From contig NZ_CP041235.1 in the NCBI RefSeq assembly GCF_014905115.1, positions 1,736,001-1,800,000 on the forward strand: a stretch of DNA of 64,000 nucleotides, written 5' to 3'. This DNA comes from Sulfurimonas sediminis (GTDB lineage: Bacteria > Campylobacterota > Campylobacteria > Campylobacterales > Sulfurimonadaceae). The first letter of the stretch is position 1. Every line of letters starts with the position of its first letter. The notes under the pieces are model-generated. The model saw nothing but the letters and a program-made list of their open reading frames with translations, ran no database searches and was not told the origin of the DNA. The translations under genes and the position numbers were made by a program. Positions 27,135-64,000 of the stretch are shown here, piece by piece.

Positions 27135-28389
27135 CACCACAATCCTCTAAAAACTCAATTTTAATATTTGAGCGATAGAGTCATCCAAATCCCATCTATT
27201 GTTGATGAGTTGTTCTTGTATAGATTTTGCACCATTAAGGTGTAAAATATTCAAAATCATACTTCTAAGAATAGTCATTAAAAATGGATTTAAATGACAA
27301 TTATGAGCATCTTCTAAAAGTGAATTATCTTTGTATTGATGCATGGTTTCCACTTTCCAATGGTGTAAAATTTTATTGTGAAAGAATTCTGCACTTTCAT
27401 GAAAATTTGCAATACAGAATTGAATTCTAGTGCTATTAGTAATCTCGCCAGTTTTATGATTTGTTGACTCTACTTTTTTTATAACTTTTATTATTGAGCG
27501 AATATGAGTTATGCCATTATGATAAAAAGTAGTTGGTTGATATACAAACACCTTCCTATTAATCCATTCATTAGATTGTTGGACAGGTTTAGCCTTGTAA
27601 ATATTTGTCGGTTTTATATCTCTTGAAATTTCATCTATTTTATCAAGTAAGGTTTTTTGATTATCTTTTACCTTGGCAATATATTTTGAACCACTATTTT
27701 CGATAGCATCAAGAGTTTTTTTGGGTATTCATTGCATCAAAAGTAAAGATAAATTCATCTCCCAATTCCCCTATCATAGCCTGAAGGGCAGGTATTTCAT
27801 TCGACTTCTCTGCTATTTGTTGATGAGCAATTATTACCCCTATCTCAGATAAAACAGCACCAACTACTTCTATTGATCTCTTATCTTTGTATTTGCTGCC
27901 ATTCATAACCTTGCCATCTACGCTCAGGTGCTTTCCTCTTGTATCGACATAGGTTCTTATCCATTTCCTAAAAACAACTTCAACTTCTTGGCTATCAACT
28001 TTCGCTAACACATCAGAAACCAAACTTTTCTTTGGTGTTAATATAAACTCTACACCTAATAATCTTTTAACTTGTTCTTTTTGAATATGCTTCTCTATCC
28101 AAATAGATATTTGCTTATAGTCAGTTGCTCCCATCAATCCAGCCAATACTGAAAGATATAAAATATGTTCTAGTCGGTGTCTTTTACCTTGAGGTTTCCG
28201 ATAGTCTGTCACCTCTGAAAACAATTTTAAAAGTTGATTTGATTGGGCTTGATCTGCATACCCTCTTATAGAACGCTTTTTCGCTAATTTTTCTCTTGTT
28301 TTTGTTGCCATATGTAATCACTTTAGTTTTTTAGAGTTTAAGCAATTATTGTTCTTCTTTTAAATTCCTGTTTTTTTAGGATTGGGGTG
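27135..28389 (-). mobile_element. ISAs1-type insertion sequence IS-A, copy 1 (1255 bp)
   Basis: The boundaries come from comparison with copy 2 at 55008-56262: both are 1255 bases and differ at only two bases that I could find. The ends are imperfect inverted repeats (CACCACAATCCT at the left, CACCCCAATCCT read inward from the right; 17 of 20 match). A 9-base target duplication flanks it: AAATGAAAG at 27126-27134 and AAATGAAAT at 28390-28398, one mismatch. It inserted into the last codons of the histidine kinase gene. Confidence 0.93.
27147..28311 (-). pseudogene. ISAs1-family DDE transposase, frame broken at an A7 run (copy 1)
   Basis: Frame 1 (28311 to 27709) encodes 200 residues, ending TFDAMNTQKNS at a stop just after A7 (27716-27722). 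The second frame continues TLDAIENSGSKYIAKVKDNQ and stays open to 27147. Removing one A would give one 387-residue protein, normal for the family. Catalytic residues are present on both sides: Asp in LSVDGKVMNGS, Asp in FTFDAMN and Glu in HHWKVETMH. Copy 2 has the same break, so this may be slippage-dependent expression of an active enzyme rather than decay. Confidence 0.85.
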
Positions 28390-53134: not shown

Positions 53135-53199
53135 AATAATTCCCTAAAAAATTTAATTTTGCAATTATAATATATAGTTCATTTAAAAGAACTTTATGC

Positions 53200-53205
53200 T
53201 AAAAT
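53200..53205 (+). promoter_or_regulatory. -10 box of the cyclase-like / coiled-coil / fapA operon
   Basis: TATGCTAAAAT, an extended -10, lies 23 bases before the ATG at 53229, with AAAGGA as ribosome-binding site in between. It would drive all three genes up to the interrupted fapA. Confidence 0.5.
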
Positions 53206-53228
53206 CGTAGCTCTAAAGGATACTGAAA

Positions 53229-53864
53229 ATGAGTAATGAAGCAGAAATCAATACTGACATTGTTTTGATAGATATCATTAATTTTTCAATGCTTACTATA
53301 CAGCAGCAGTATGAAATCATCAATTTTTTGACACGCAGTTACAAAAAAATCATACAACGTCTGCTTGAAAGTGCAAAACTTCCTGTAGAAGAACTTGTTT
53401 TGGGTTATATCCCGACAGGAGACGGGTTTTACTGCATACTCACACCAAAGTTCAGAGGCTACGGAACAATTTTAGGGCTGAGCTTTCATCATTTTTCGGA
53501 GCAGCTTTCAAAGAAATTTTCCTATTTCCATGGCTTGCGTATAGCAGTGCATACAGGCAAAATCAATAAATTTACAGACATTTTGGGGCATCAGAATTTT
53601 ATAGGCACCGGACTTAATGACTGTGCCCGATACCTGGAAATCAAAGACTTCAGTATTTCAACAGTAATGATCTCTGATGAAGCATATTACAATTTTAAAC
53701 GTTTCATTACTGTGCACAAAGAGTACAACCAACTCCTGCAGGAAAGGGAATTTAAAAAGTCCACCCTCTTTGCTTTTAAGGACAAGCATGGCAATGAAAA
53801 AAAAGGATACCGTGTATGGCTGAGAAAATCAGGTATAATTATTCCTCCAATTTATAAATTTTAA
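53229..53864 (+). CDS. Class III nucleotidyl cyclase-like protein, probably altered active site
   Basis: A 211-residue protein with the class III cyclase pattern: IVLIDIINFSMLT (first metal Asp), YIPTGDGFYCIL (second metal Asp in GDG), LRIAVHTGKI, and FIGTGLNDCARYLE, which keeps the Asn and Arg of the NxxxR transition-state pair. The substrate-selecting Lys normally four residues before the GDG Asp is Ile here. It may therefore make another nucleotide, or only bind one. It starts an operon with a coiled-coil protein and FapA. Confidence 0.7.
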   Translation: MSNEAEINTDIVLIDIINFSMLTIQQQYEIINFLTRSYKKIIQRLLESAKLPVEELVLGYIPTGDGFYCILTPKFRGYGTILGLSFHHFSEQLSKKFSYFHGLRIAVHTGKINKFTDILGHQNFIGTGLNDCARYLEIKDFSISTVMISDEAYYNFKRFITVHKEYNQLLQEREFKKSTLFAFKDKHGNEKKGYRVWLRKSGIIIPPIYKF

Positions 53865-53891
53865 CACCCGGTGTTTAAGAAAGGACAGTAT

Positions 53892-54530
53892 ATGAAACTT
53901 ACACTCGATGAATATTCAAAAAAATTTAAAATGTCAAAAGAGATGATCAGTTCAAAACTCCGCAGCAAAAAGTTAAATTATATCGTTGAAGATGACACTG
54001 TTTACATAATTGTTCCTGATGAAGCCTCACCACAACCGCAACAAAACACTTCGCCTGCAAAACCACGCACAACTGTTGCCATGGTTTTATCATTGTACCA
54101 AAAAGAGAACCTGCAGCTCAAAGCAAAAATTGTCCAACTCGAAGAAAAAATAGACAAACTCATCAATGACAAAGAGCAGATGCTCCGTGATGAGATGAGT
54201 AAAATAGAAAAAGTTTATGCCACCAAAGACGAGCAGTTAAAGCAGGTTTTAGAACTGCTCAACACAAAACTTCTTGCCCAAAACAGCAACACGGTCCATG
54301 ATGTCGAACCTTTGCCCCAAACACAAAAAGCCATAGAGGTGGAAAAAGAAAACCAAATTGTTGAGCTGAAAACCTATTTGAAAACACTTGATCTGGAACC
54401 CTACCAGAGAAAAATCATCAAAAAAAGATTTTTAGCCGTATATGACAGTGATATCAGAGTCATTAAGCAAAACGGTAAACTGTACCTCGATTTTGCGAAG
54501 TATGATTACAGTGATTTGCTAGAGTATTAA
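53892..54530 (+). CDS. Coiled-coil protein with N-terminal MerR-like helix-turn-helix (DUF3972-like)
   Basis: 212 residues from the ATG at 53892, preceded by AAAGGAC; the frame extends to 53871. Residues 1-45 (LDEYSKKFKMSKEMISSKLRSKKL) look like a MerR-type helix-turn-helix. A Pro/Gln linker follows, then a coiled coil (about 75-135). The C-terminus (YQRKIIKKRFLAVYDSDIRVIKQNGKLYLDF) is compact and conserved-looking. From memory it resembles DUF3972 proteins of Campylobacterota, whose function is unknown. It lies between the cyclase-like gene and fapA, 27 and 3 bases apart. Confidence 0.6.
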   Translation: MKLTLDEYSKKFKMSKEMISSKLRSKKLNYIVEDDTVYIIVPDEASPQPQQNTSPAKPRTTVAMVLSLYQKENLQLKAKIVQLEEKIDKLINDKEQMLRDEMSKIEKVYATKDEQLKQVLELLNTKLLAQNSNTVHDVEPLPQTQKAIEVEKENQIVELKTYLKTLDLEPYQRKIIKKRFLAVYDSDIRVIKQNGKLYLDFAKYDYSDLLEY

Positions 54531-54533
54531 TGA

Positions 54534-55005
54534 ATGCCAAAAAAAACAGAACACAAAATCATAAAAACCCGTCATATCAAAGAAGCATTACAAACCTTTG
54601 CACAGGAGAATTTTATTCTTCCCTCAGAGTGTGACTTTGTTATAAACAAAACACAAACATATATAAAAAGCAATACAAACGCTTCTTTTGAACTCTACAG
54701 CAAAGAGATACAGGAAAAATACAAAGATAAAGAAAAAATACTCAATGAGCATGTGGAATTTCATCAACTCTATACCATTACCCTTATGAAAAAAGAAAAA
54801 AAAGATCTTGAACTTGAATATACTATAGATTTTTCAAAATTTTTCACACATCCTTTTTTGATACTGTCGCCGGATTCAAAAATTCCCTATAAATCACACC
54901 AGCCTGTTGAGTTGTTAAAAATACTCTTTAGAGAATGCAACAAAATCAAAGCGTATCATAAAATACTTGTGAACATCTTTGATGAAGAGATGAAAAAAGC
55001 TCTGA
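54534..55005 (+). pseudogene. fapA: FapA-like (DUF342) gene, 5' fragment interrupted by two IS elements
   Basis: The first 157 codons of a 559-codon gene. It begins MPKKTEHKIIKTRHIKEALQ and reads to FDEEMKKAL, after which IS-A copy 2 enters; the present ORF ends at 55037 with IS-encoded residues. Joined to 57588-58795 it gives a continuous frame (KKAL then KILVKYIYAG). This N-terminal region is the variable part of FapA-like proteins. FapA family members influence flagellar assembly in Vibrio and may bind polysaccharide. The intact protein is certainly not made from this locus. Confidence 0.85.
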
Positions 55006-55007
55006 TA

Positions 55008-56262
55008 CACCACAATCCTCTAAAAACTCAATTTTAATATTTGAGCGATAGAGTCATCCAAATCCCATCTATTGTTGATGAGTTGTTCTTGTATAGATTT
55101 TGCACCATTAAGGTGTAAAATATTCAAAATCATACTTCTAAGAATAGTCATTAAAAATGGATTTAAATGACAATTATGAGCATCTTCTAAAAGTGAATTA
55201 TCTTTGTATTGATGCATGGTTTCCACTTTCCAATGGTGTAAAATTTTATTGTGAAAGAATTCTGCACTTTCATGAAAATTTGCAATACAGAATTGAATTC
55301 TAGTGCTATTAGTAATCTCGCCAGTTTTATGATTTGTTGACTCTACTTTTTTTATAACTTTTATTATTGAGCGAATATGAGTTATGCCATTATGATAAAA
55401 AGTAGTTGGTTGATATACAAACACCTTCCTATTAATCCATTCATTAGATTGTTGGACAGGTTTAGCCTTGTAAATATTTGTCGGTTTTATATCTCTTGAA
55501 ATTTCATCTATTTTATCAAGTAAGGTTTTTTGATTATCTTTTACCTTGGCAATATATTTTGAACCACTATTTTCGATAGCATCAAGAGTTTTTTTGGGTA
55601 TTCATTGCATCAAAAGTAAAGATAAATTCATCTCCCAATTCCCCTATCATAGCCTGAAGGGCAGGTATTTCATTCGACTTCTCTGCTATTTGTTGATGAG
55701 CAATTATTACCCCTATCTCAGATAAAACAGCACCAACTACTTCTATTGATCTCTTATCTTTGTATTTGCTGCCATTCATAACCTTGCCATCTACGCTCAG
55801 GTGCTTCCCTGTTGTATCGACATAGGTTCTTATCCATTTCCTAAAAACAACTTCAACTTCTTGGCTATCAACTTTCGCTAACACATCAGAAACCAAACTT
55901 TTCTTTGGTGTTAATATAAACTCTACACCTAATAATCTTTTAACTTGTTCTTTTTGAATATGCTTCTCTATCCAAATAGATATTTGCTTATAGTCAGTTG
56001 CTCCCATCAATCCAGCCAATACTGAAAGATATAAAATATGTTCTAGTCGGTGTCTTTTACCTTGAGGTTTCCGATAGTCTGTCACCTCTGAAAACAATTT
56101 TAAAAGTTGATTTGATTGGGCTTGATCTGCATACCCTCTTATAGAACGCTTTTTCGCTAATTTTTCTCTTGTTTTTGTTGCCATATGTAATCACTTTAGT
56201 TTTTTAGAGTTTAAGCAATTATTGTTCTTCTTTTAAATTCCTGTTTTTTTAGGATTGGGGTG
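55008..56262 (-). mobile_element. ISAs1-type insertion sequence IS-A, copy 2 (1255 bp)
   Basis: Near-identical to 27135-28389 and in the same orientation. It has a perfect 9-base target duplication, GCTCTGATA, at 54999-55007 and 56263-56271. The last two bases of this target belong to the end of IS-B, so IS-A landed on the fapA/IS-B junction after IS-B was in place. Confidence 0.93.
55020..56184 (-). pseudogene. ISAs1-family DDE transposase, frame broken at an A7 run (copy 2)
   Basis: Same arrangement as copy 1: 200 residues (56184 to 55582) ending after QKNS, then the second frame to 55020. The A7 tract has the same length. One residue differs from copy 1 (VDTTGKH here, VDTRGKH there). The identical break in two independently inserted copies argues that the frameshifted form is mobile. 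Confidence 0.85.
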
Positions 56263-56269
56263 GCTCTGA

Positions 56270-57578
56270 TAGGTAAATCCCACGAAAAATAAAACAAATC
56301 TTAATCAATATAGTTTGATTCAATCAATTGAACACTAAAATCATCACGATAAAGAGCATTTCTTTTAATATCTGCCATTGTAGTTTTACCGGTTAGGAGT
56401 ACCTTTTTATCTTTGTTCTCATTTAAAAACAACTGATAAAGATTAACAGTAAAACTTCTAAGAATAGCTATAGAGAAAGGCTCTTTATATGCTATATGGT
56501 CATCTTCTTCAGTAAGCATATCTAAGTGATAGTGATATGTTTCCACTCTCCAATGTTGCAGTATCTTTTGAAGAAACTCTTTTGCAGTTGTTTTAAAGTT
56601 AGCCATTAAATATTGAGTTGAAATTGTAACTTCACCAGTCTGTGCATTTGTTAATGTTTTCGTCACTTTAATGAGTGATTGAATATTTTGAAAGTTCTCA
56701 TGATACATAACTAAATCAGCACTTTTATTTTGAAAAACTTCTACTTTTCGAGAGACTCTTTTGTTGTTTTCAGTTAAATAGCTATCTTCATCATCAACTC
56801 TATCTGTAGGCTGATTAAACTCTTCTATGGTCTTTATAGCTTTCTCTTTGAGGTGTTTCTGGTTATCTTTGAGTTTTGCTATATATCTGTTACCTTGCTC
56901 ATCAATAGTGTTGAGAATCTCTGATTGAGTAAGCAGTGCATCAAAGGAAAATATCTGTCCTTCATTGCTAAAAATATTATCGTTTAAAACCTCTTTGAGT
57001 GCAGTAATTTCGCTACTCTTATTTTTATCTAAAAACTTGTGAGCAAACACTATTTTTATATCTTTATCCAAGATATTTAGTATTGCTTTATGTCTTTCCT
57101 GTGTGTATTGACCATTCACGTCGCTACCTCTCAGCCACTTCCCGTCAATAGCAATATTTTCTTGTGCAATGAATGGAAAAAAGAACTCTCTAAATACTTT
57201 TTCCAAAGCATTATTATCTGTGTTTATCAATAAACGATGATATGTTGATTTGGAAGGAATCGTTATCTCTTCTTTATCAAAAATCTCTTTGAGTATTGCA
57301 TTGTCTTTGTTATATATCATCCATGAAAATATATCCTTAAAAGTTGTATTTCCTTTGATAAGTGCAAAAAGTGTCATGAAAAGAACTTCGTGCAATGGAT
57401 ATTCTATCTTCCCTGTATCTACTCTATAGTCTGGGATACTTTTTAGCGATTCAAGTAAGGCTTTTGTGCGTGTTAATTTGATGGTAAACTCCTTGTTTTA
57501 GGAGTCTAAGCAATATTTCTTCCAGTTCTTTTGAATCTATTGATTAAGATTTATTTTATTTTTCGTGGGATTTACCTA
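56270..57578 (-). mobile_element. ISAs1-type insertion sequence IS-B (1309 bp), first insertion into fapA
   Basis: The ends are inverted repeats of 41 bases with one mismatch (56270-56310 and 57538-57578), starting TAGGTAAATCCCACG. The 9-base target duplication AAGCTCTGA is at 57579-57587 on the right and 54997-55005 on the left, the left copy now separated by IS-A copy 2. Its left edge is shared with the target duplication of IS-A copy 2. Confidence 0.92.
56301..57482 (-). CDS. ISAs1-family DDE transposase of IS-B, start codon apparently ATC
   Basis: The first standard start in frame is TTG at 57395, giving 364 residues (LHEVLFMTLFALIKGNT). The family N-terminus, however, continues upstream: TRTKALLESLKSIPDYRVDTGKIEYP is encoded before it. 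The frame opens after a TAA, with AAGGAG placed 6 bases before ATC at 57482, where an ATG is expected. Asp in AIDGKWLRGS, Asp in SFDALLTQ and Glu in HWRVETYHYH complete the DDE triad. The element may be silenced by an ATG-to-ATC change, or start weakly on ATC or the inner TTG. Confidence 0.85.
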   Translation of the reverse strand: MKLTRTKALLESLKSIPDYRVDTGKIEYPLHEVLFMTLFALIKGNTTFKDIFSWMIYNKDNAILKEIFDKEEITIPSKSTYHRLLINTDNNALEKVFREFFFPFIAQENIAIDGKWLRGSDVNGQYTQERHKAILNILDKDIKIVFAHKFLDKNKSSEITALKEVLNDNIFSNEGQIFSFDALLTQSEILNTIDEQGNRYIAKLKDNQKHLKEKAIKTIEEFNQPTDRVDDEDSYLTENNKRVSRKVEVFQNKSADLVMYHENFQNIQSLIKVTKTLTNAQTGEVTISTQYLMANFKTTAKEFLQKILQHWRVETYHYHLDMLTEEDDHIAYKEPFSIAILRSFTVNLYQLFLNENKDKKVLLTGKTTMADIKRNALYRDDFSVQLIESNYID

Positions 57579-57587
57579 AAGCTCTGA

Positions 57588-58795
57588 AAATTTTAGTGAA
57601 ATACATATATGCCGGCAAATTTGTCAAACGTGTCAAAATTCCTCTGTTTGAGGGAATAGAGCCTGTCCTCACACGTCCTGGTAAACTTATTTTTTGGTTT
57701 AAAGAAAAAGAACATACAGGCGAAGTTATCGAAGTCGAGGAAAACGAACTTCTTGTGGAGTATAAAAAGCCTGTATACGGACAAAACGGGCTCAATGCTT
57801 TTGGTGAATATCTAGACGCAAATTTTGCCAACAACATGGATGACCTGCAGGCAGATGTTGATGAAAAATCTATTGCAATACAGGAAAATGCAACATCAAA
57901 AAAATACATAAGCAAGATACGCGGATATGTCCATTATGACGGCAAAGAACTTCTTGTTGACAATCGCATAAAAGTCAGTGAAATCACAAAGCACAAAGAT
58001 CTTGTAGAAGATCTCGAAGACAATAATATTGAAATAGTGGTGACGCAGCATGATACGGCAAGGGATACCATCAAAGAAGGGGTGACGCTTGTTTCAGAGA
58101 GAATACATGTAAACGGTTTTGTGGGAGCAAAAAGCCGTCTTGAAGCGATAACCCTTGAAATTGAGGGAGCTACCCACCAAGACTCACTCCAGTATGCGAA
58201 ATATGCAACCATTAACAGGCATAAAGGTACATTACGATGCCATGAGGGGAAAATTTCTCTGCTTGAAGGTGGTGTGGTACACGCAACCGCTGTAGAAATT
58301 GACTCTTCCATAGGGGGTGCTGTTTATGCCCAGGATGTTACCATCAAGCATGTGAAAAACAATTTAAAAGTTTACGCTTCTAATTCTATTACTGTCCGGC
58401 TTGTATCCGGGGAAGACAACCTCTTTAAAATAAACTACCGTGATGTCCCGGTAGTGCAAAGCAAACTGCAGTTTATAGACAAAGATATCAAGGAGCTCAG
58501 ATATAAATTAGAAGGAGCAAAAAGACACAGCTTAGGTAAAGTTGAAGAGTTGGAAAAAGAGATTACACGCCTTAAAAAAGAAAAAGAGGCAATACACAAC
58601 TCCTACAAAAATGCAAAAATTACTGTCCAAGAACCTTTCAAAGGTTTAAACAACATTATCTTTACCATTGACAATGCGCATGAAATAGCCTACAAAACAG
58701 AGGCAAAATCCTATCCTCCTTTTTATCTTGAAATACAAGAAAACATCATCACCCTTCATCCTGTCGCAAAATCCATAGTTATCGAAGAAAAATAG
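57588..58795 (+). pseudogene. fapA: FapA-like (DUF342) gene, 3' fragment
   Basis: The C-terminal 402 residues of the interrupted gene. It contains the DUF342 right-handed beta region (NRIKVSEITKHKDLVEDL, VTLVSERIHVNGFVGAKSRLEA, LEGGVVHATAVEIDSSIGGAVYAQDVTI) and a following coiled coil (LRYKLEGAKRHSLGKVEELEKE), then a beta-rich tail. A GTG at 57596 could restart translation to give 399 residues without the N-terminal domain, but no clear ribosome-binding site precedes it. The sequence shows no further stop or frameshift, so the disruption looks recent. Confidence 0.85.
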
Positions 58796-58995: not shown

Positions 58996-59235
58996 ATGCA
59001 AATAAATGATTTATTTAACATCCTACATAACTCAATAGAGTCTCAATACAATGGGAAAAAGATTTCCCTTAAAGATATGGCTAAAAGTCTGGGGATTTCT
59101 ATGCGTACATATCAGGACTGGAAACTGGGACGTGCCAAACCGCAGGCTGCAGCAACGGTTATAAAAATGTTAGGTAAATTAGATGATGATGAAATTATCA
59201 GGGCTGTAAGAAAAATCAACAGATTAGAGGAGTAG
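58996..59235 (+). CDS. Small helix-turn-helix DNA-binding protein
   Basis: 79 residues with one helix-turn-helix, LKDMAKSLGISMRTYQDWKLGRAKPQAAATVIKML, of the XRE-like or phage-repressor type; the rest is short flanking helices. No ribosome-binding site precedes the ATG, and the -10 box ends 7 bases before it, so a leaderless message is possible. The next ORF begins 4 bases after its stop. Confidence 0.7.
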   Translation: MQINDLFNILHNSIESQYNGKKISLKDMAKSLGISMRTYQDWKLGRAKPQAAATVIKMLGKLDDDEIIRAVRKINRLEE

Positions 59236-59239
59236 CGGA

Positions 59240-59473
59240 ATGGGGATACTGACTAAAAATGAAAGAGATGGTCTTGAAGATGTGTTTTTATCAATACATA
59301 CATCAACAAATAAATACAAAAAAATTAAAGATTTATCAGCTTTAATTATGACGCATGAAACGACTCTAAATTTCAAAAAGCTCTTAAAACAGGCTAAATA
59401 TGGACTAAAAGAAACAAAAATTTCAGATTTTCTTCTTAAATTCACCAAAAAGAAGAAAAATTTAAGCAAATAA
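59240..59473 (+). CDS. Small basic hypothetical protein
   Basis: 77 residues, rich in Lys and Thr (MGILTKNERDGLEDVFLSIH at the start; LLKFTKKKKNLSK at the end). Probably helical; no recognisable domain. GAGGAG inside the end of the HTH gene provides a good ribosome-binding site, which supports translation. It is likely co-expressed with the HTH gene. Confidence 0.6.
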   Translation: MGILTKNERDGLEDVFLSIHTSTNKYKKIKDLSALIMTHETTLNFKKLLKQAKYGLKETKISDFLLKFTKKKKNLSK

Positions 59474-59532
59474 ACTATAAAGTATCTGTAGCTGAATTAT
59501 TTCAGGGCAAATCTTAATCCAAGGGTAAATTT

Positions 59533-59884: not shown

Positions 59885-59922
59885 ATTTTACACCTAAATA
59901 TTATTATTTTTAGGTGTAAAAT
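59885..59922. repeat. 14-base perfect inverted repeat at the end of the tnpC-like gene
   Basis: ATTTTACACCTAAA (59885-59898) and TTTAGGTGTAAAAT (59909-59922) with a 10-base loop. It covers the stop codon of the minus-strand gene. It may be a terminator or part of the left end of the recombinase element. Confidence 0.6.
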
Positions 59923-60382
59923 TTAGCTTCATTTTTTGTTTAAATTCCATCTCGTAAAGTGCAGTTCTCAGTTCTTCATTACTAAAAGTTAATTCATTTA
60001 CTTTATCTTTTAATTTTTTATTTCTCTCTTTTATTTTTTTCATTTCTAGCTCTTTTTTCTTTAACTCTTTTTTTATATTTAACAACTCATCTGCCATTGA
60101 ACGCTCTTGCACCGATGATGATACTGCTATAGCTTCATATTTTCCAATTCTAAGCTCAATCATTAAAGATTGAATATGTACAAGTTCTTTATTTCTAAAA
60201 GTAGCCTCGCTTATTCCTTTGCCTGTCTCATCTATCTCTTTGGTCTTTGCAGCAACAGCCTTAATGCTTTTCATTTCAAAAGTATTTTCCAGCTGTCTAA
60301 CAGCTTCTCTAATAAGATACTCTGTACGCTCTTTACGACTTTTAGCGATTTCGGAAAGTTTTGGATTGCCTACTTTTGCCAT
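59894..60382 (-). CDS. DUF6262 / Tn554 TnpC-like protein
   Basis: 162 residues. The N-terminus (SRKERTEYLIREAVRQLENT) and the helix-turn-helix-like KGISEATFRNKELVHIQSLM match the pattern of TnpC/DUF6262 proteins, followed by a long coiled coil (about 95-150) rich in Lys and Glu. In Tn554, TnpC accompanies two tyrosine recombinases and affects transposition. Its start shares one base with the end of the upstream recombinase gene, which fits the same three-gene arrangement. Confidence 0.75.
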   Translation of the reverse strand: MAKVGNPKLSEIAKSRKERTEYLIREAVRQLENTFEMKSIKAVAAKTKEIDETGKGISEATFRNKELVHIQSLMIELRIGKYEAIAVSSSVQERSMADELLNIKKELKKKELEMKKIKERNKKLKDKVNELTFSNEELRTALYEMEFKQKMKLNFTPKNNNI

Positions 60383-61914
60383 TATTCAATACTCCCATTG
60401 CTATGTAATTTATTATATAATACAGCAAACAGGGTCGCTCTATGATGAGAATCTTTAGCATTTGTATTATCACCTAGCTCATATTGTTTTTCTGTTATTT
60501 TTAAATACCTATCTACTTGCTCAAGATAATATTCTTCAAGTTCTTTGTCTGGCACAAGGTCATCACAATCTAAGCATTCATAATGATTACCGCAACCTGC
60601 TGTATTTGGACAGTATCCAAGATCTGATATCTTATGTGCCTTTGGATTTTCAAGTAATTTTTTCTCAAACGCATCATCCATACCATTCACTATTCTACCT
60701 TTGAACATATATCGTGAGGTAATATCTTTATTTTCTAATAGTATCTTACGCTGCTCTTCTATCATAAAGCTCTCTGATGGTGCAGTATATGAATCTAATG
60801 ATTCATATGTGCGATGATTTGCAAAATTCTTTAGTTGTGGTGTGCTCCATCCAGCTTCTAGTCGCATTGTAATCCCTGTCTTTTTTAAATCTCTTGGTAT
60901 GGCACGGGCTTTTTCTGGTATCTTCAATTCTTTTTGTAGCTTTCTAAAATACTTTGACAATCTTTGATTTGAAAAATATTGTATCTTTTTATTTTGCGTA
61001 TGCCTATATGTGAATAAAAAATCTTTCTTATCACTATCTTCTTGTAATTCTTGGCTTACCTCCTGCTGTTTTTTAATTAATTTATACAACATTTTTTGCA
61101 TAGGCTCTTTAAGGTTCAAATACTCTATTTTATAATCAATTCCTCTTGCACTCTTAGAATTCTTGACAATAGCATGCTTAATTGTTCCCATATCTTTTGA
61201 TAGTTTTTTTACACAGTCTAATGGATAGTTTAACGTATCAGTCGGTCTTGTAGCATACATTCTCATAATCCAGTAAGCCACTCTTATGTGAAGGGGTGAT
61301 TCATCGGTCATAAAATGTGTATCAAGTTTTTCTAAAATGTTTTCATCAATAACTTTATACTTATCACTATTATTATTTTTGCTATAGTGATTTTCTATAG
61401 ACTCAATCCCTTGTATATAGACTAAAGAAGAATGCATATTCATATAAGTATGAAATGTTAAAGCACTATCTAATAACTTATTTTTATATACAGATGCATA
61501 GCCTTCTCCATCTTCTTTTTTTTGAGAATCAAGCCAATAGCTGTAATATGAGAATATTTTCTTATTGACTTGCAAAAGGCTTATGTTTTCTTCAGATAGA
61601 AATTTAATATATCTATGCAAATATCGTATATAAACATATGAGCTATCTCTTTCAAATAAAACAATAGCAAACAATTTTATGAGTCTAACAGCTTTATCTC
61701 CCATCTTTTTAAACATATGAAATCTCACTCGATCACTATGAGATTTATTAGTTCCTCTGTTAAGTACCCATGAGTTATCAGAGAATGGCGAAGATGAATA
61801 TTTTGATAGTTTTTTTATCAACATATCCTCTGCTTTTTTTTCATTAGGCTGTTGTTCCAGCAGTCCTTGAAAAGTAACTTTTAGGGAGAATTTTGATTGC
61901 TCTAATGCTGACAT
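60382..61914 (-). CDS. Tyrosine recombinase-like protein with degenerate active site (Tn554 TnpB-like)
   Basis: 510 residues. The C-terminal recombinase domain keeps the first Arg (MYATRPTDTLNYP), a His (FANHRTYESLDSYTAP) and the Tyr in the nucleophile position of that segment, but the box II HxxR reads RDLK (RAIPRDLKKTGITMRL), so two catalytic positions differ. A Cys-rich region follows (YCPNTAGCGNHYECLDC), probably zinc-binding. It overlaps the upstream recombinase gene by 13 bases. It may act as a structural partner rather than a full recombinase. Confidence 0.8.
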   Translation of the reverse strand: MSALEQSKFSLKVTFQGLLEQQPNEKKAEDMLIKKLSKYSSSPFSDNSWVLNRGTNKSHSDRVRFHMFKKMGDKAVRLIKLFAIVLFERDSSYVYIRYLHRYIKFLSEENISLLQVNKKIFSYYSYWLDSQKKEDGEGYASVYKNKLLDSALTFHTYMNMHSSLVYIQGIESIENHYSKNNNSDKYKVIDENILEKLDTHFMTDESPLHIRVAYWIMRMYATRPTDTLNYPLDCVKKLSKDMGTIKHAIVKNSKSARGIDYKIEYLNLKEPMQKMLYKLIKKQQEVSQELQEDSDKKDFLFTYRHTQNKKIQYFSNQRLSKYFRKLQKELKIPEKARAIPRDLKKTGITMRLEAGWSTPQLKNFANHRTYESLDSYTAPSESFMIEEQRKILLENKDITSRYMFKGRIVNGMDDAFEKKLLENPKAHKISDLGYCPNTAGCGNHYECLDCDDLVPDKELEEYYLEQVDRYLKITEKQYELGDNTNAKDSHHRATLFAVLYNKLHSNGSIE

Positions 61915-64000
61915 GCACTCCCCTTTAAACTTGCTATCAAACGGTTAACTAAATTGTCATATGCGTCTAAACGGTTTTTTTGAATAATATATTCACTCCA
62001 TGTTTCATATTCATTCTTAGGGCATCCTTCGCTTTCTACTTTCTCTATGAAGGCATTTAAAATAGACTTTTGATTGTTACGTAACCTTTGCCATGAGCTA
62101 AGATATTTACTATCCGTAATAAGTCTAGCGCAATTTGCACAACTGTCTGCAGTTTGGAGCTTTCCACATTCCCCCATTATTGGATGCCTAACACATTCAC
62201 CGTACTCCATTTGACGCTTATGAATATAAAGTTCTACAAACATCTGTTCTTTGTCTTTTTTTGAATATCCACTTAGTAAATTATTATCAAACTGAACTTT
62301 AAAATGATCCCTAAAAAAATCGGTATTAAGCTCTTCAGCTTTTTTAGTTCTTACATATGCATATGCTTTTTCACTTGTGTTTAATGTAAGCCAGCCAAAA
62401 AATGATTTAATTTCTTCTGGACTATGTCCGTCTTCAACCATAGTTGTAGCTATCATCGCTCTCATCTGATATGGAGTGTAGTGCCATAGATTACTATCAA
62501 TATCAGCGCGTATATCATATTTTTCTATTAGAGCACTTATCTCTCTAATTAGCTCCTTAGATGAAACAATATGATATTTGACTTGATGTGCATAGTTGAG
62601 ACTTTTACGGACAAATATAGAGTCAATTTTAGATTCCTTTCTAATATTCTCACTAATTAGAATTTGATTTTCTATCGCTTTTATAACATCATTATCATAT
62701 AAAGGTATTTTTCTTATCGCCTTTTTCCCCTTTTTAGCATAAGCTTTAGCTTGTTTCTCTATGCTCAAAATTAAAATATGGCAATTTAATTTTTTATCAA
62801 ATATTAAAGAATTTTGATTTATTGAAGCTAACTCGGATGGTCTGCATCCTGTAGATGATATAACCAAAAAAGCATTTTTAACATCAACTGAAACTTCATC
62901 TATATGATATCTTATTTGTAAATACACTTCCTCTGGTAGGGGCAAGGTAGATTCTTCTTCATTATCTATTATAACAATTTCCGATGAAAGGGTTTTCTGT
63001 ATAACTTTTAACTTCTCTATATTTGCAGAACCGTTAAGTATCGCTCTATTTATTAGATATTTATAAAATGAGCTTATATCATTCTTTACACCTTTTAATT
63101 TTTTATCTTTTGATCTCTTATCAAACCAAGTAACTATATCGTCATATTCGATATCTGAGGCTTTTAGATTGAAACTTTTTTTTCTAGTCTTAACATATTT
63201 AAAAAATGATAAAATTTCTCCTTTTACCGATGTACCTTTAGATACACTATATATCGCGAATTCTTTAATCTCTCTTGCAATTGCATCATCACTAACAATA
63301 CCTAAGCTTATCGTGAAAGTTCTCCATATATTTTGCTTTATGTAGCCTATGATATACTTTTTAGAAACCTTTGAAATAACTATTTTATTAAATACATCAA
63401 AATGTTTCACTTGAGTTTCTTGGTATTTGAATACAATTTTTCTTAATTCCGCATAAGCTTCAAGATGGTACTTCTTTACCTTATGCAATAAATTTGTATC
63501 TTGAGCAATATGAAACTGTAATGCCTTACTAAGCGATATCTCCTCGTTGTTAAGCATTTGATTTCTTAATATTTTTTTTATAGAATTATTAAATAGTTTT
63601 GGATGTATTGCAAGGGCATACATAATTATTATACCTGTACTTACTTCAAAATCTTGAGTTATTGAAGACAATGGATTATGATTAAGCAACTGCTCTTTAA
63701 TTTTTGCGAGAAGCTTTTTTGTTTTTTTTACATTTTTTTCAAGCTTAAAATTATGTTTGCCATCTAATGAAATATTTTTCCATCCATTATTATTAATATT
63801 TATTTTTAGATCATATCTTGTTTCTGGATATATTCGCAAGGGAAGAGAATCATCTTTTACTCCAAAACCGATTATATTTAATATGTGATATTTGACATTT
63901 TCCGGCAAAGTGTCTATTCTATCTAACTTTGTTCTAAAAAAAACACCCTTTGTAATATCAAAACCATGATACTCAAAATAGGCATACCGATGTATCCAGT
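61902..64000 (-). CDS. Tyrosine recombinase, Tn554 TnpB-like (partial, start beyond window)
   Basis: At least 698 residues, with the frame open to the right edge, so the TTG at 63908 is not the true start. The recombinase domain includes STGCRPSELASIN (catalytic Arg), WHYTPYQMRAMIATTMV (box II; the usual HxxR is YxxR, Arg kept), FGWLTLNTSEKAYAYV (Trp in the His/Trp position and a Tyr nucleophile). A C-terminal cysteine cluster (CVRHPIMGECGKLQTADSCANC) is probably zinc-binding. Long, Lys- and Ile-rich N-terminal part. A further recombinase (TnpA-like) may lie beyond the edge. Confidence 0.8.
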   Translation of the reverse strand, partial: WIHRYAYFEYHGFDITKGVFFRTKLDRIDTLPENVKYHILNIIGFGVKDDSLPLRIYPETRYDLKININNNGWKNISLDGKHNFKLEKNVKKTKKLLAKIKEQLLNHNPLSSITQDFEVSTGIIIMYALAIHPKLFNNSIKKILRNQMLNNEEISLSKALQFHIAQDTNLLHKVKKYHLEAYAELRKIVFKYQETQVKHFDVFNKIVISKVSKKYIIGYIKQNIWRTFTISLGIVSDDAIAREIKEFAIYSVSKGTSVKGEILSFFKYVKTRKKSFNLKASDIEYDDIVTWFDKRSKDKKLKGVKNDISSFYKYLINRAILNGSANIEKLKVIQKTLSSEIVIIDNEEESTLPLPEEVYLQIRYHIDEVSVDVKNAFLVISSTGCRPSELASINQNSLIFDKKLNCHILILSIEKQAKAYAKKGKKAIRKIPLYDNDVIKAIENQILISENIRKESKIDSIFVRKSLNYAHQVKYHIVSSKELIREISALIEKYDIRADIDSNLWHYTPYQMRAMIATTMVEDGHSPEEIKSFFGWLTLNTSEKAYAYVRTKKAEELNTDFFRDHFKVQFDNNLLSGYSKKDKEQMFVELYIHKRQMEYGECVRHPIMGECGKLQTADSCANCARLITDSKYLSSWQRLRNNQKSILNAFIEKVESEGCPKNEYETWSEYIIQKNRLDAYDNLVNRLIASLKGSACQH

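Follow-up and report, generated by a model that had tools for sequence, protein, structure and literature searches.

The locus studied here lies in a 64,000-nucleotide stretch of Sulfurimonas sediminis DNA (NZ_CP041235.1, positions 1,736,001 to 1,800,000; hereafter, the window). It carries in immediate succession a gene for a stand-alone cyclase-like protein (CYC), a gene for a helix-turn-helix coiled-coil protein (HTHCC) and a FapA-like gene, a second fapA. Does a nucleotide signal made by the first protein feed into the third, as the initial annotation had proposed, or are these genes linked in some other way?

Layout of the locus

The features, in window coordinates, are the following.

53177..53192, no strand: conserved element GTTCATTTAAAA(G/C)AAC between fbaA and CYC, directly before the TATGCTAAAAT box; candidate shared promoter/operator
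53229..53864, + strand: CYC, class III nucleotidyl cyclase-like, stand-alone, 211 aa (from reading frame, predicted fold and residues)
53892..54530, + strand: HTHCC, 212 aa, ATG at 53892 (from translation and structure model)
54534..55005, + strand: 5′ piece of the FapA-like gene (aligns with its intact counterpart at locus L025 up to 55005; A3 profile E 2.9e-59)
55006..56269, no strand: ISAs1-family insertion A, transposase frame in two pieces (NCBIfam transpos_ISAs1, self-match)
56270..57578, no strand: ISAs1-family insertion B, with terminal inverted repeats at 56270-56310 and 57538-57578 and a transposase at 56301-57395 on the − strand
57596..58795, + strand: FapA-like gene, 3′ piece, covering the FapA_N match and the C-terminal part (Pfam FapA_N E 1.2e-6; A3 profile E 1.4e-196)

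The gene order and the gaps given in the initial annotation, 27 bases between CYC and HTHCC and 3 between HTHCC and the FapA-like gene (ATG at 54534), are correct. The third gene, however, is not intact. Two ISAs1-family elements split it into pieces (54534 to about 55005 and about 57596 to 58795) that are separated by about 2.57 kb, and a 10-base target duplication flanks the two-element block. Insertion A has a 99.8% copy at window positions 27135-28389.

A canonical full-length fapA (639-646 aa) is present elsewhere in the same genome. The 3′ piece scores 28.4 bits against FapA_N (gathering score 27), all 19 relatives of the FapA-like gene match FapA_N at E<=0.1, and homology to canonical FapA (flagellar assembly protein A, PF20250) is detected at E about 1e-70. 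Compared with canonical FapA, the FapA-like protein is shorter (about 557 versus 640 aa), has a weaker FapA_N and is encoded by a second copy, which is broken in the window.

A promoter shared by all three genes is plausible from the sequence, the candidate being the conserved upstream element. In an upstream alignment judged by eye, this element is conserved in Sulfurimonas relatives; the corresponding regular expression matches 24 of the 109 loci scanned, a set that includes loci without the region. Reading by eye against the sigma-28 and sigma-54 consensus sequences revealed neither promoter type upstream of CYC. A sigma-70 scan returned 16 sites, fewer than the 26.8 in shuffled sequences, and the conserved box was absent from its list.

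Fold and conserved residues of CYC

The AlphaFold model of CYC (pLDDT 88.6, pTM 0.86) shows the fold of a class III nucleotidyl cyclase. A Foldseek search with the model retrieved 91 PDB chains at E<=1e-3, including 5oyh (E 2.7e-7), and the top 50 of the 91 are all nucleotidyl cyclases. The best PDB match is soluble guanylate cyclase beta (VIA Z 18.0, 179 residues, rmsd 2.6). Thus, the cyclase fold suggested earlier is clearly predicted. Pfam and NCBIfam gave no match for window CYC, including at the gathering score of PF00211, which is a library model and not a biochemical criterion; among 37 CYC relatives, 8 match PF00211 at E<=1 (best 0.023).

The residues named in the initial annotation, namely the metal-binding Asp15 and Asp65, the Asn130/Arg134 pair and Ile61 at the Lys position, are all present in window CYC. 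We aligned relatives from 89 of 94 loci, dropping rows shorter than 195 aa and retaining near-duplicates, which arise because two locus sets share organisms. D15, D65, N123, N130 and R134 are each invariant (89/89), also in G210, a genome from outside the family, while position 61 is Ile in 66 and Val in 23 sequences. Asn123, which the initial annotation did not mention, occupies the second base-selecting position. The base-selecting positions were assigned through spacing relative to Ma1120, the 7-residue spacing in CYC being the same as that of D157/A164. Adenylyl cyclases have Asp at the second position, and Rv0386 has a Gln/Asn pair. The Ile/Val-Asn pair of CYC is neither the Lys/Asp pair (ATP) nor a Glu/Cys-type pair (GTP), and we found no documented class III enzyme with the same pair; the substrate is therefore not inferable from it.

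CYC is under purifying selection, with dN/dS of 0.113 between the window and L025 and 0.045-0.060 in other comparisons. Taken together, the modeled fold and the residues suggest that CYC is probably an active member of a so far unannotated class III cyclase family. In the window genome we saw no canonical cyclic-nucleotide receptor; its four PF00027 proteins, read by eye, appear to be missing the phosphate-binding-cassette Arg.

HTHCC, the FapA-like gene and flagella

The initial annotation expected the genes to stay together in relatives, and for CYC and HTHCC they do: the two adjoin in 90 of 94 loci, and a contig end truncates two of the other four. Since dN/dS of CYC is 0.05-0.11 and HTHCC is adjacent in nearly all loci, the observation as a whole goes beyond chance. 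Moreover, the distances of CYC and HTHCC correlate more than two control genes account for (partial r 0.66 over 34 loci; 0.36 for the control HU gene). HTHCC relatives occur in 109 of 347 genomes of the phylum. HTHCC has a winged-HTH-like N-terminus, a 70-residue coiled coil and a small second HTH-like unit at the C-terminal end; it is likely a DNA-binding coiled-coil protein. Its fold search gave nothing at E<=0.001, the best matches being BldC/HlyU (E about 0.5). Some resemblance to DUF3972 (PF13118) is seen in 12 of 35 HTHCC relatives, which match weakly (best E 4e-4); window HTHCC does not match PF13118 at E<=1, nor does a paralog in G000. With no HTHCC match in G210, HTHCC cannot be essential.

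CYC and the FapA-like gene, by contrast with the expectation, do not stay together. We defined FapA-like by an A3 profile E<=1e-160, canonical FapA scoring about 1e-80 at best, and excluded a 246-position fragment (3.9e-81) in G418. Among 130 FliD-positive family genomes, 27 have both genes, 47 CYC alone, 36 the FapA-like gene alone and 20 neither, an association that is negative in direction (p 0.0025). In the genus code of the window the corresponding counts are 17, 17, 33 and 14 (p 0.10, not significant), and in other genera outside g5 they are 10, 3, 3 and 6 (p 0.08, a positive lean). On these counts we reject one dedicated CYC–FapA module as the main reading; tree-based tests of independent pairs on starred branches had too few cases, 3 and 2, to decide. 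A pathway in which a cyclase-made nucleotide signal acts on the FapA-like protein via HTHCC would fit the order and tight spacing where all three genes occur, the similar partial correlations of CYC with FapA and with HTHCC (0.79 versus 0.81; 8 loci with all three genes and both controls), and the fact that where flagella markers are missing, an intact CYC and the FapA-like gene are missing too (below). It is nevertheless improbable, given the negative co-occurrence and the genus code g5, in which all 27 FliD-positive genomes have CYC yet no FapA-like gene. Furthermore, within the phylum sample, 16 genomes of the family have an operon-type HTHCC and no CYC, and in 8 of the 15 such loci fetched (G288 was left out) FapA directly follows HTHCC. 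In the window, finally, the FapA-like gene is broken while CYC and HTHCC are intact. A nucleotide signal passing directly from CYC to FapA is thus not supported; in the literature searched, which most subscription papers lie outside, no cyclase–FapA or cyclase–DUF3972 link appears, and PMC5182063 was a false lead, the matched term being DUF3426.

The part of the initial proposal that gains indirect support is a nucleotide-type protein serving flagella. Intact CYC is present in 74 of 130 FliD-positive and 4 of 17 FliD-negative genomes (p 0.018), and either CYC or the FapA-like gene in 110 of 130 and 4 of 17, respectively (p 5e-7), in Fisher tests that ignore the relatedness of the genomes. None of the 12 genomes in which both FliD and a full FapA are missing has an intact CYC or a FapA-like gene; we scored the CYC copies of G420 and G380 as broken, the latter having an in-frame internal loss. 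The four FliD-negative genomes with CYC (G358, G392, G393 and G439) are drafts of 90-370 contigs with canonical FapA, and FliD is therefore possibly missing from the assembly. As 56 of the 130 FliD-positive genomes lack intact CYC, it is not needed for flagella generally. The only clear independent losses of CYC are G303, which lacks CYC, FliD, FapA and HTHCC whereas 29 of the 30 genomes of its genus code carry CYC, and G420, one of the 12 genomes without flagella markers, where a CYC pseudogene stands next to an intact HTHCC in a genome of 1.6 Mb. In the phylum sample, G210 alone has a close CYC relative outside the family, and there CYC heads a flagellin-like/FlaG/FliD/FliS-like cluster; in this single case, the interval between CYC and the flagellin-like gene may contain a promoter. 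Three weak phylum matches, in G107, G164 and G223, have E about 5e-4, lie in 932-aa frames and span no more than profile positions 39-104; they were set aside as probably due to chance. A link between CYC and flagellar function is likely.

Could the genes simply be independent neighbors beside fbaA and the HU gene, with the flagella correlation produced by genome reduction or lineage? The small genome of G420 and the few independent losses of CYC are compatible with this, as is the mix-and-match gene content on the HTHCC tree, where 35 rows have CYC and the FapA-like gene, 50 CYC only, 8 the FapA-like gene only and 7 neither (a quick tree of 101 rows including one outgroup paralog, with 40 open forks). 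We consider it doubtful, however, because HTHCC stays beside CYC while other neighbors, such as fbaA, vary, HTHCC is intact in G420 while CYC decays, and a flagellar cluster lies behind CYC in G210. Somewhat less doubtful, though still unlikely, is that CYC has lost catalysis and that its class III fold serves HTHCC as an NTP-binding scaffold or switch. The non-canonical base pocket, the lack of a canonical receptor seen in the window genome and the constancy of HTHCC as neighbor would all suit such a role. Dead cyclases usually lose some catalytic residues, whereas the four metal and transition-state residues of CYC are invariant, G210 included.

We favor, at about an even chance, the reading that CYC represents a family of small soluble class III cyclases that has gone unannotated in Sulfurimonadaceae-like Campylobacterota, and that it is paired with HTHCC and serves flagella, the FapA-like gene being optional. 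CYC would probably work as a homodimer, in which one chain would bind the metals through Asp15 and Asp65, the other would stabilize the transition state with Asn130 and Arg134, and the Ile/Val-Asn pair would read the nucleotide base. CYC would be made together with HTHCC, its likeliest partner or target, and the pair may then serve a flagellar function. The FapA-like gene would be an optional third gene that likewise occurs only where flagella markers are present and that is inherited independently of CYC; in the window strain it is already broken. That the CYC family makes a cyclic nucleotide signal not seen before, possibly neither cAMP nor cGMP, and that this signal, with HTHCC or a different receptor outside the CRP type as its reader, controls flagella in Campylobacterota, is a speculative extension that we regard as unlikely.

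Relation to known cyclases

CYC shares with the class III catalytic domain (PF00211) the fold, the two metal Asp residues and the Asn/Arg transition-state pair; it differs in having Ile/Val and Asn in place of Lys/Asp or Glu/Cys, and its 211 residues include no sensor or membrane domain. A survey of Campylobacterota cyclases, in its accessible text, searched with PF00211 and PF01295, and every cyclase found carries CHASE2 (PMC9239204). CYC belongs to the same phylum as these CHASE2 adenylate cyclases but lacks CHASE2 and is beyond the reach of PF00211, and the family accordingly fell outside that search as described there. The same text regards CRP homologues in Campylobacterota without a cyclase as probably not cAMP-regulated (PMC9239204). 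If active, CYC would add a cyclase to 78 of 147 family genomes (intact copies) and would combine an unusual base pocket with a likely flagellar role in a sulfur-oxidising bacterial lineage. A single 211-residue soluble protein assayed with four NTPs would provide a direct and cheap test of the cyclase claim.

DUF2652 cyclase-like proteins resemble CYC in being soluble, single-domain, class III-like and recognised by computation only; the accessible part of that source gives their pairs as Lys-Glu or Glu-Lys and does not mention Campylobacter or Sulfurimonas (PMC4886424). None of 37 CYC relatives matched DUF2652. Pycsar PycC likewise combines a class III fold and a base pocket that departs from the canonical type (PMC11224242), and 8jsz is among the CYC fold matches. 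The PycC clades described in the part of that source available have Y50/D94/R97, F100/R142/Q144 or F60/K104/F109 (PMC11224242). CYC, at positions assigned by distance from the metal Asp, has Leu13, Ile61, Thr63 and Tyr68, the first three standing in place of the Tyr/Phe and Arg/Lys/Asp of these PycC enzymes. No cyclic-pyrimidine effector of the TIR or TM type (PycTIR, PycTM) lies beside CYC. A role as a defence gene or mobile element was rejected, as PADLOC gave no hit and CYC was absent from the plasmid and phage collections searched. In one genome, G044, a distant CYC relative adjoins a TIR-like gene.

Layout of the locus and the interrupted FapA-like gene

The genome carrying the window is a single contig of 2.32 Mb, and a sequence search for CYC loci placed Sulfurimonas as its nearest named relatives. 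The locus encodes a class III nucleotidyl cyclase-like protein (CYC, 211 aa), a protein with a helix-turn-helix and a coiled coil (HTHCC, 212 aa) and a second, shorter FapA-type protein (FapA-like):

53229-53864, CYC
53892-54530, HTHCC
54534, start of the FapA-like gene

The ORF coordinates reproduce the spacing originally described, 27 bases between CYC and HTHCC and 3 bases between HTHCC and the FapA-like gene. The reading frames of CYC and HTHCC are whole, unlike that of the FapA-like gene, which is interrupted: the intact gene of a close relative (L025) aligns to window position 55005 and resumes at 57578. Two ISAs1-family transposase regions lie inside the insert, and a 10-base duplication is present on both sides of the whole. 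Insertion B has 41-base terminal repeats, while insertion A, an element recently mobile in this genome, has a 99.8% identical second copy at window 27135-28389. A canonical fapA (639-646 aa) is located elsewhere in the genome, adjoining murJ/ruvA-like genes (neighbours named by eye).

Several features surround the locus. Between the upstream fbaA gene and CYC lies the partly palindromic sequence GTTCATTTAAAA(G/C)AAC (53177-53192), kept also in L135, a locus lacking CYC. A gene of about 79 aa (HTH_3-like) and one of about 77 aa (window about 58996-59500; L025:3677-4155) are conserved in many relatives between the locus and the downstream HU gene. Beyond the HU gene, the minus strand carries adjacent ORFs of 162, 510 and 668 aa (59894-63908), which we take to resemble a three-gene, Tn554-like tyrosine-recombinase element. 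The same place in L055 holds ORFs of about 162, 511 and 664 aa, and L039 and L080 have the 162-aa ORF.

Fold and predicted active site of CYC

Pfam, NCBIfam and PADLOC gave no match for the window CYC protein. PF00211 was matched at E<=1 by 8 of 37 CYC relatives scanned (best 0.023), and a CYC profile reached adenylate cyclase 9 among PDB sequences only at E 0.37. CYC was modelled with high confidence (pLDDT 88.6, pTM 0.86); with this structure, Foldseek retrieved 91 chains at E<=1e-3, the 50 matches listed being all nucleotidyl cyclases, and VIA-align superimposed CYC on soluble guanylate cyclase beta with Z 18.0 and rmsd 2.6 over 179 residues. The cyclase fold proposed for the first gene is real, and the libraries searched had no entry for the CYC family. 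An earlier example of class III-like proteins that had gone unrecognised is provided by DUF2652 proteins (PMC4886424). CYC dN/dS was 0.113 against L025 and 0.045-0.060 in two more distant pairs, which indicates purifying selection.

In an alignment of 89 CYC relatives, D15, D65, N123, N130 and R134 are invariant, and position 61 is Ile in 66 and Val in 23. In Ma1120, according to PMC4215837, K101 and D157 specify ATP and position 164 is the transition-state position. The N123-N130 spacing equals that of D157 and 164 in this account (7 residues), supporting N123 as the second base-selecting residue. The pyrimidine-reading residues described for Pycsar cyclases (PMC11224242) are absent from CYC. 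A distant relative of 384 aa in genome G044 (L152:3470-5220), which has the Ile...TGDG and Asn base-pair positions in common with CYC, adjoins a ThsB/TIR-like gene; the two may form a Pycsar- or Thoeris-like defence pair.

A Campylobacterota signalling survey using PF00211 and PF01295 reported no cyclases other than those with CHASE2, which it found in 21% of species (PMC9239204). Our PF00211 search of the S. sediminis genome returned zero cyclases. Potential receptors were represented by four PF00027 proteins (L157, L158, L159, L160). The cyclic-nucleotide cassette is marked by Glu and Arg, and reading the sequences by eye found the two together in none of the four. Since the phosphate-cassette Arg is apparently absent, these proteins may sense something else.

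Gene partnerships in relatives

A single-sequence search detected CYC in 24 of the 347 phylum genomes (22 in the window's family, G210 outside it and the distant relative in G044), and a profile search in 27, three of them weak and probably due to chance. HTHCC adjoins CYC in 90 of 94 loci; two of the other four are cut by a contig end, and the remaining two are those of G210 and G044. In 8 of 15 CYC-less HTHCC loci fetched, a FapA-like gene directly follows HTHCC. In these arrangements HTHCC is thus the constant, with CYC and FapA as separate options. On the HTHCC tree, at least 7 state changes are needed for CYC and 9 for FapA. In L135 CYC is missing and the element upstream of it persists, which indicates loss.

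CYC, FapA-like and FliD were searched over the same 147 family genomes, all at least 90% complete, and found in 80 (two broken, G420 and G380), 65 and 130, respectively.

Distribution of CYC and FapA-like genes (both; CYC only; FapA-like only; neither; p)
FliD-positive genomes, n=130: 27; 47; 36; 20; 0.0025 towards avoidance
Window's genus code alone: 17; 17; 33; 14; 0.10
Other genera without genus code g5: 10; 3; 3; 6; 0.08 towards association

Because the FliD-positive counts lean to avoidance, a dedicated CYC-FapA pathway is not supported, although the two may be loosely linked in some lineages. With the two neighbouring genes as controls, the distance correlation gave a partial r of 0.66 for CYC-HTHCC (34 loci) versus 0.36 for CYC-HU. 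In the few loci (8) with all genes, values were 0.81 for CYC-HTHCC, 0.79 for CYC-FapA and 0.42 for FBA-CYC; the CYC-FapA value is the best evidence for the three-gene module, with a nucleotide signal feeding FapA, that the initial annotation proposed. Of that module, CYC-HTHCC stands as a unit, but FapA is optional and, in the window, broken.

In the HTHCC model, a coiled coil (62-132) lies between a winged-HTH-like unit (2-40) and another, small HTH-like unit (156-200). A fold search with it gave weak matches (BldC and HlyU, at E about 0.5), and 12 of 35 HTHCC relatives weakly match DUF3972. Of the 347 phylum genomes, 109 have a profile match; many of the matches are to a second, more distant paralog. 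That of S. sediminis lies at 55.5 kb in the genome (L150:4479-5177), with a YajQ-like gene on one side and a TrkA-like gene on the other (named by eye).

Association with flagella

FapA has been tied to flagella before: HubP of Vibrio vulnificus is reported to recruit FapA to the pole, tying flagellar formation to glucose (PMC12918733), and Borrelia fapA is part of a flagellar operon (PMC11607428). A flagellar role of CYC appears likely from its distribution and from one independent neighbourhood. In tests that ignore relatedness, intact CYC occurs in 74/130 genomes with FliD and 4/17 without (p 0.018), FapA-like in 63/130 and 2/17 (p 0.004), and either one in 110/130 and 4/17 (p 5e-7). The 12 genomes without FliD and without any full FapA contain neither intact CYC nor FapA-like. 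Two of the 12 lost CYC independently and are informative: in G303, CYC is gone though 29 of the 30 genomes sharing its genus code have it, and in G420 a CYC pseudogene lies between intact fbaA and intact HTHCC. G252 is a comparable case for the FapA-like gene, as neighbouring HTHCC-tree rows carry it (7/8). Against a flagellar link, CYC is kept without a FliD match in G358, G392, G393 and G439, all fragmented drafts with canonical FapA present.

The independent neighbourhood is that of G210, where an HTHCC profile search gave no match. There, CYC is followed on one strand by a protein of 718 aa that bears flagellin motifs, then by FlaG, FliD, a FliS-like gene and a small follower (Pfam and ORFs; FliS by eye), with an 85-base gap after CYC that holds a possible promoter of its own.
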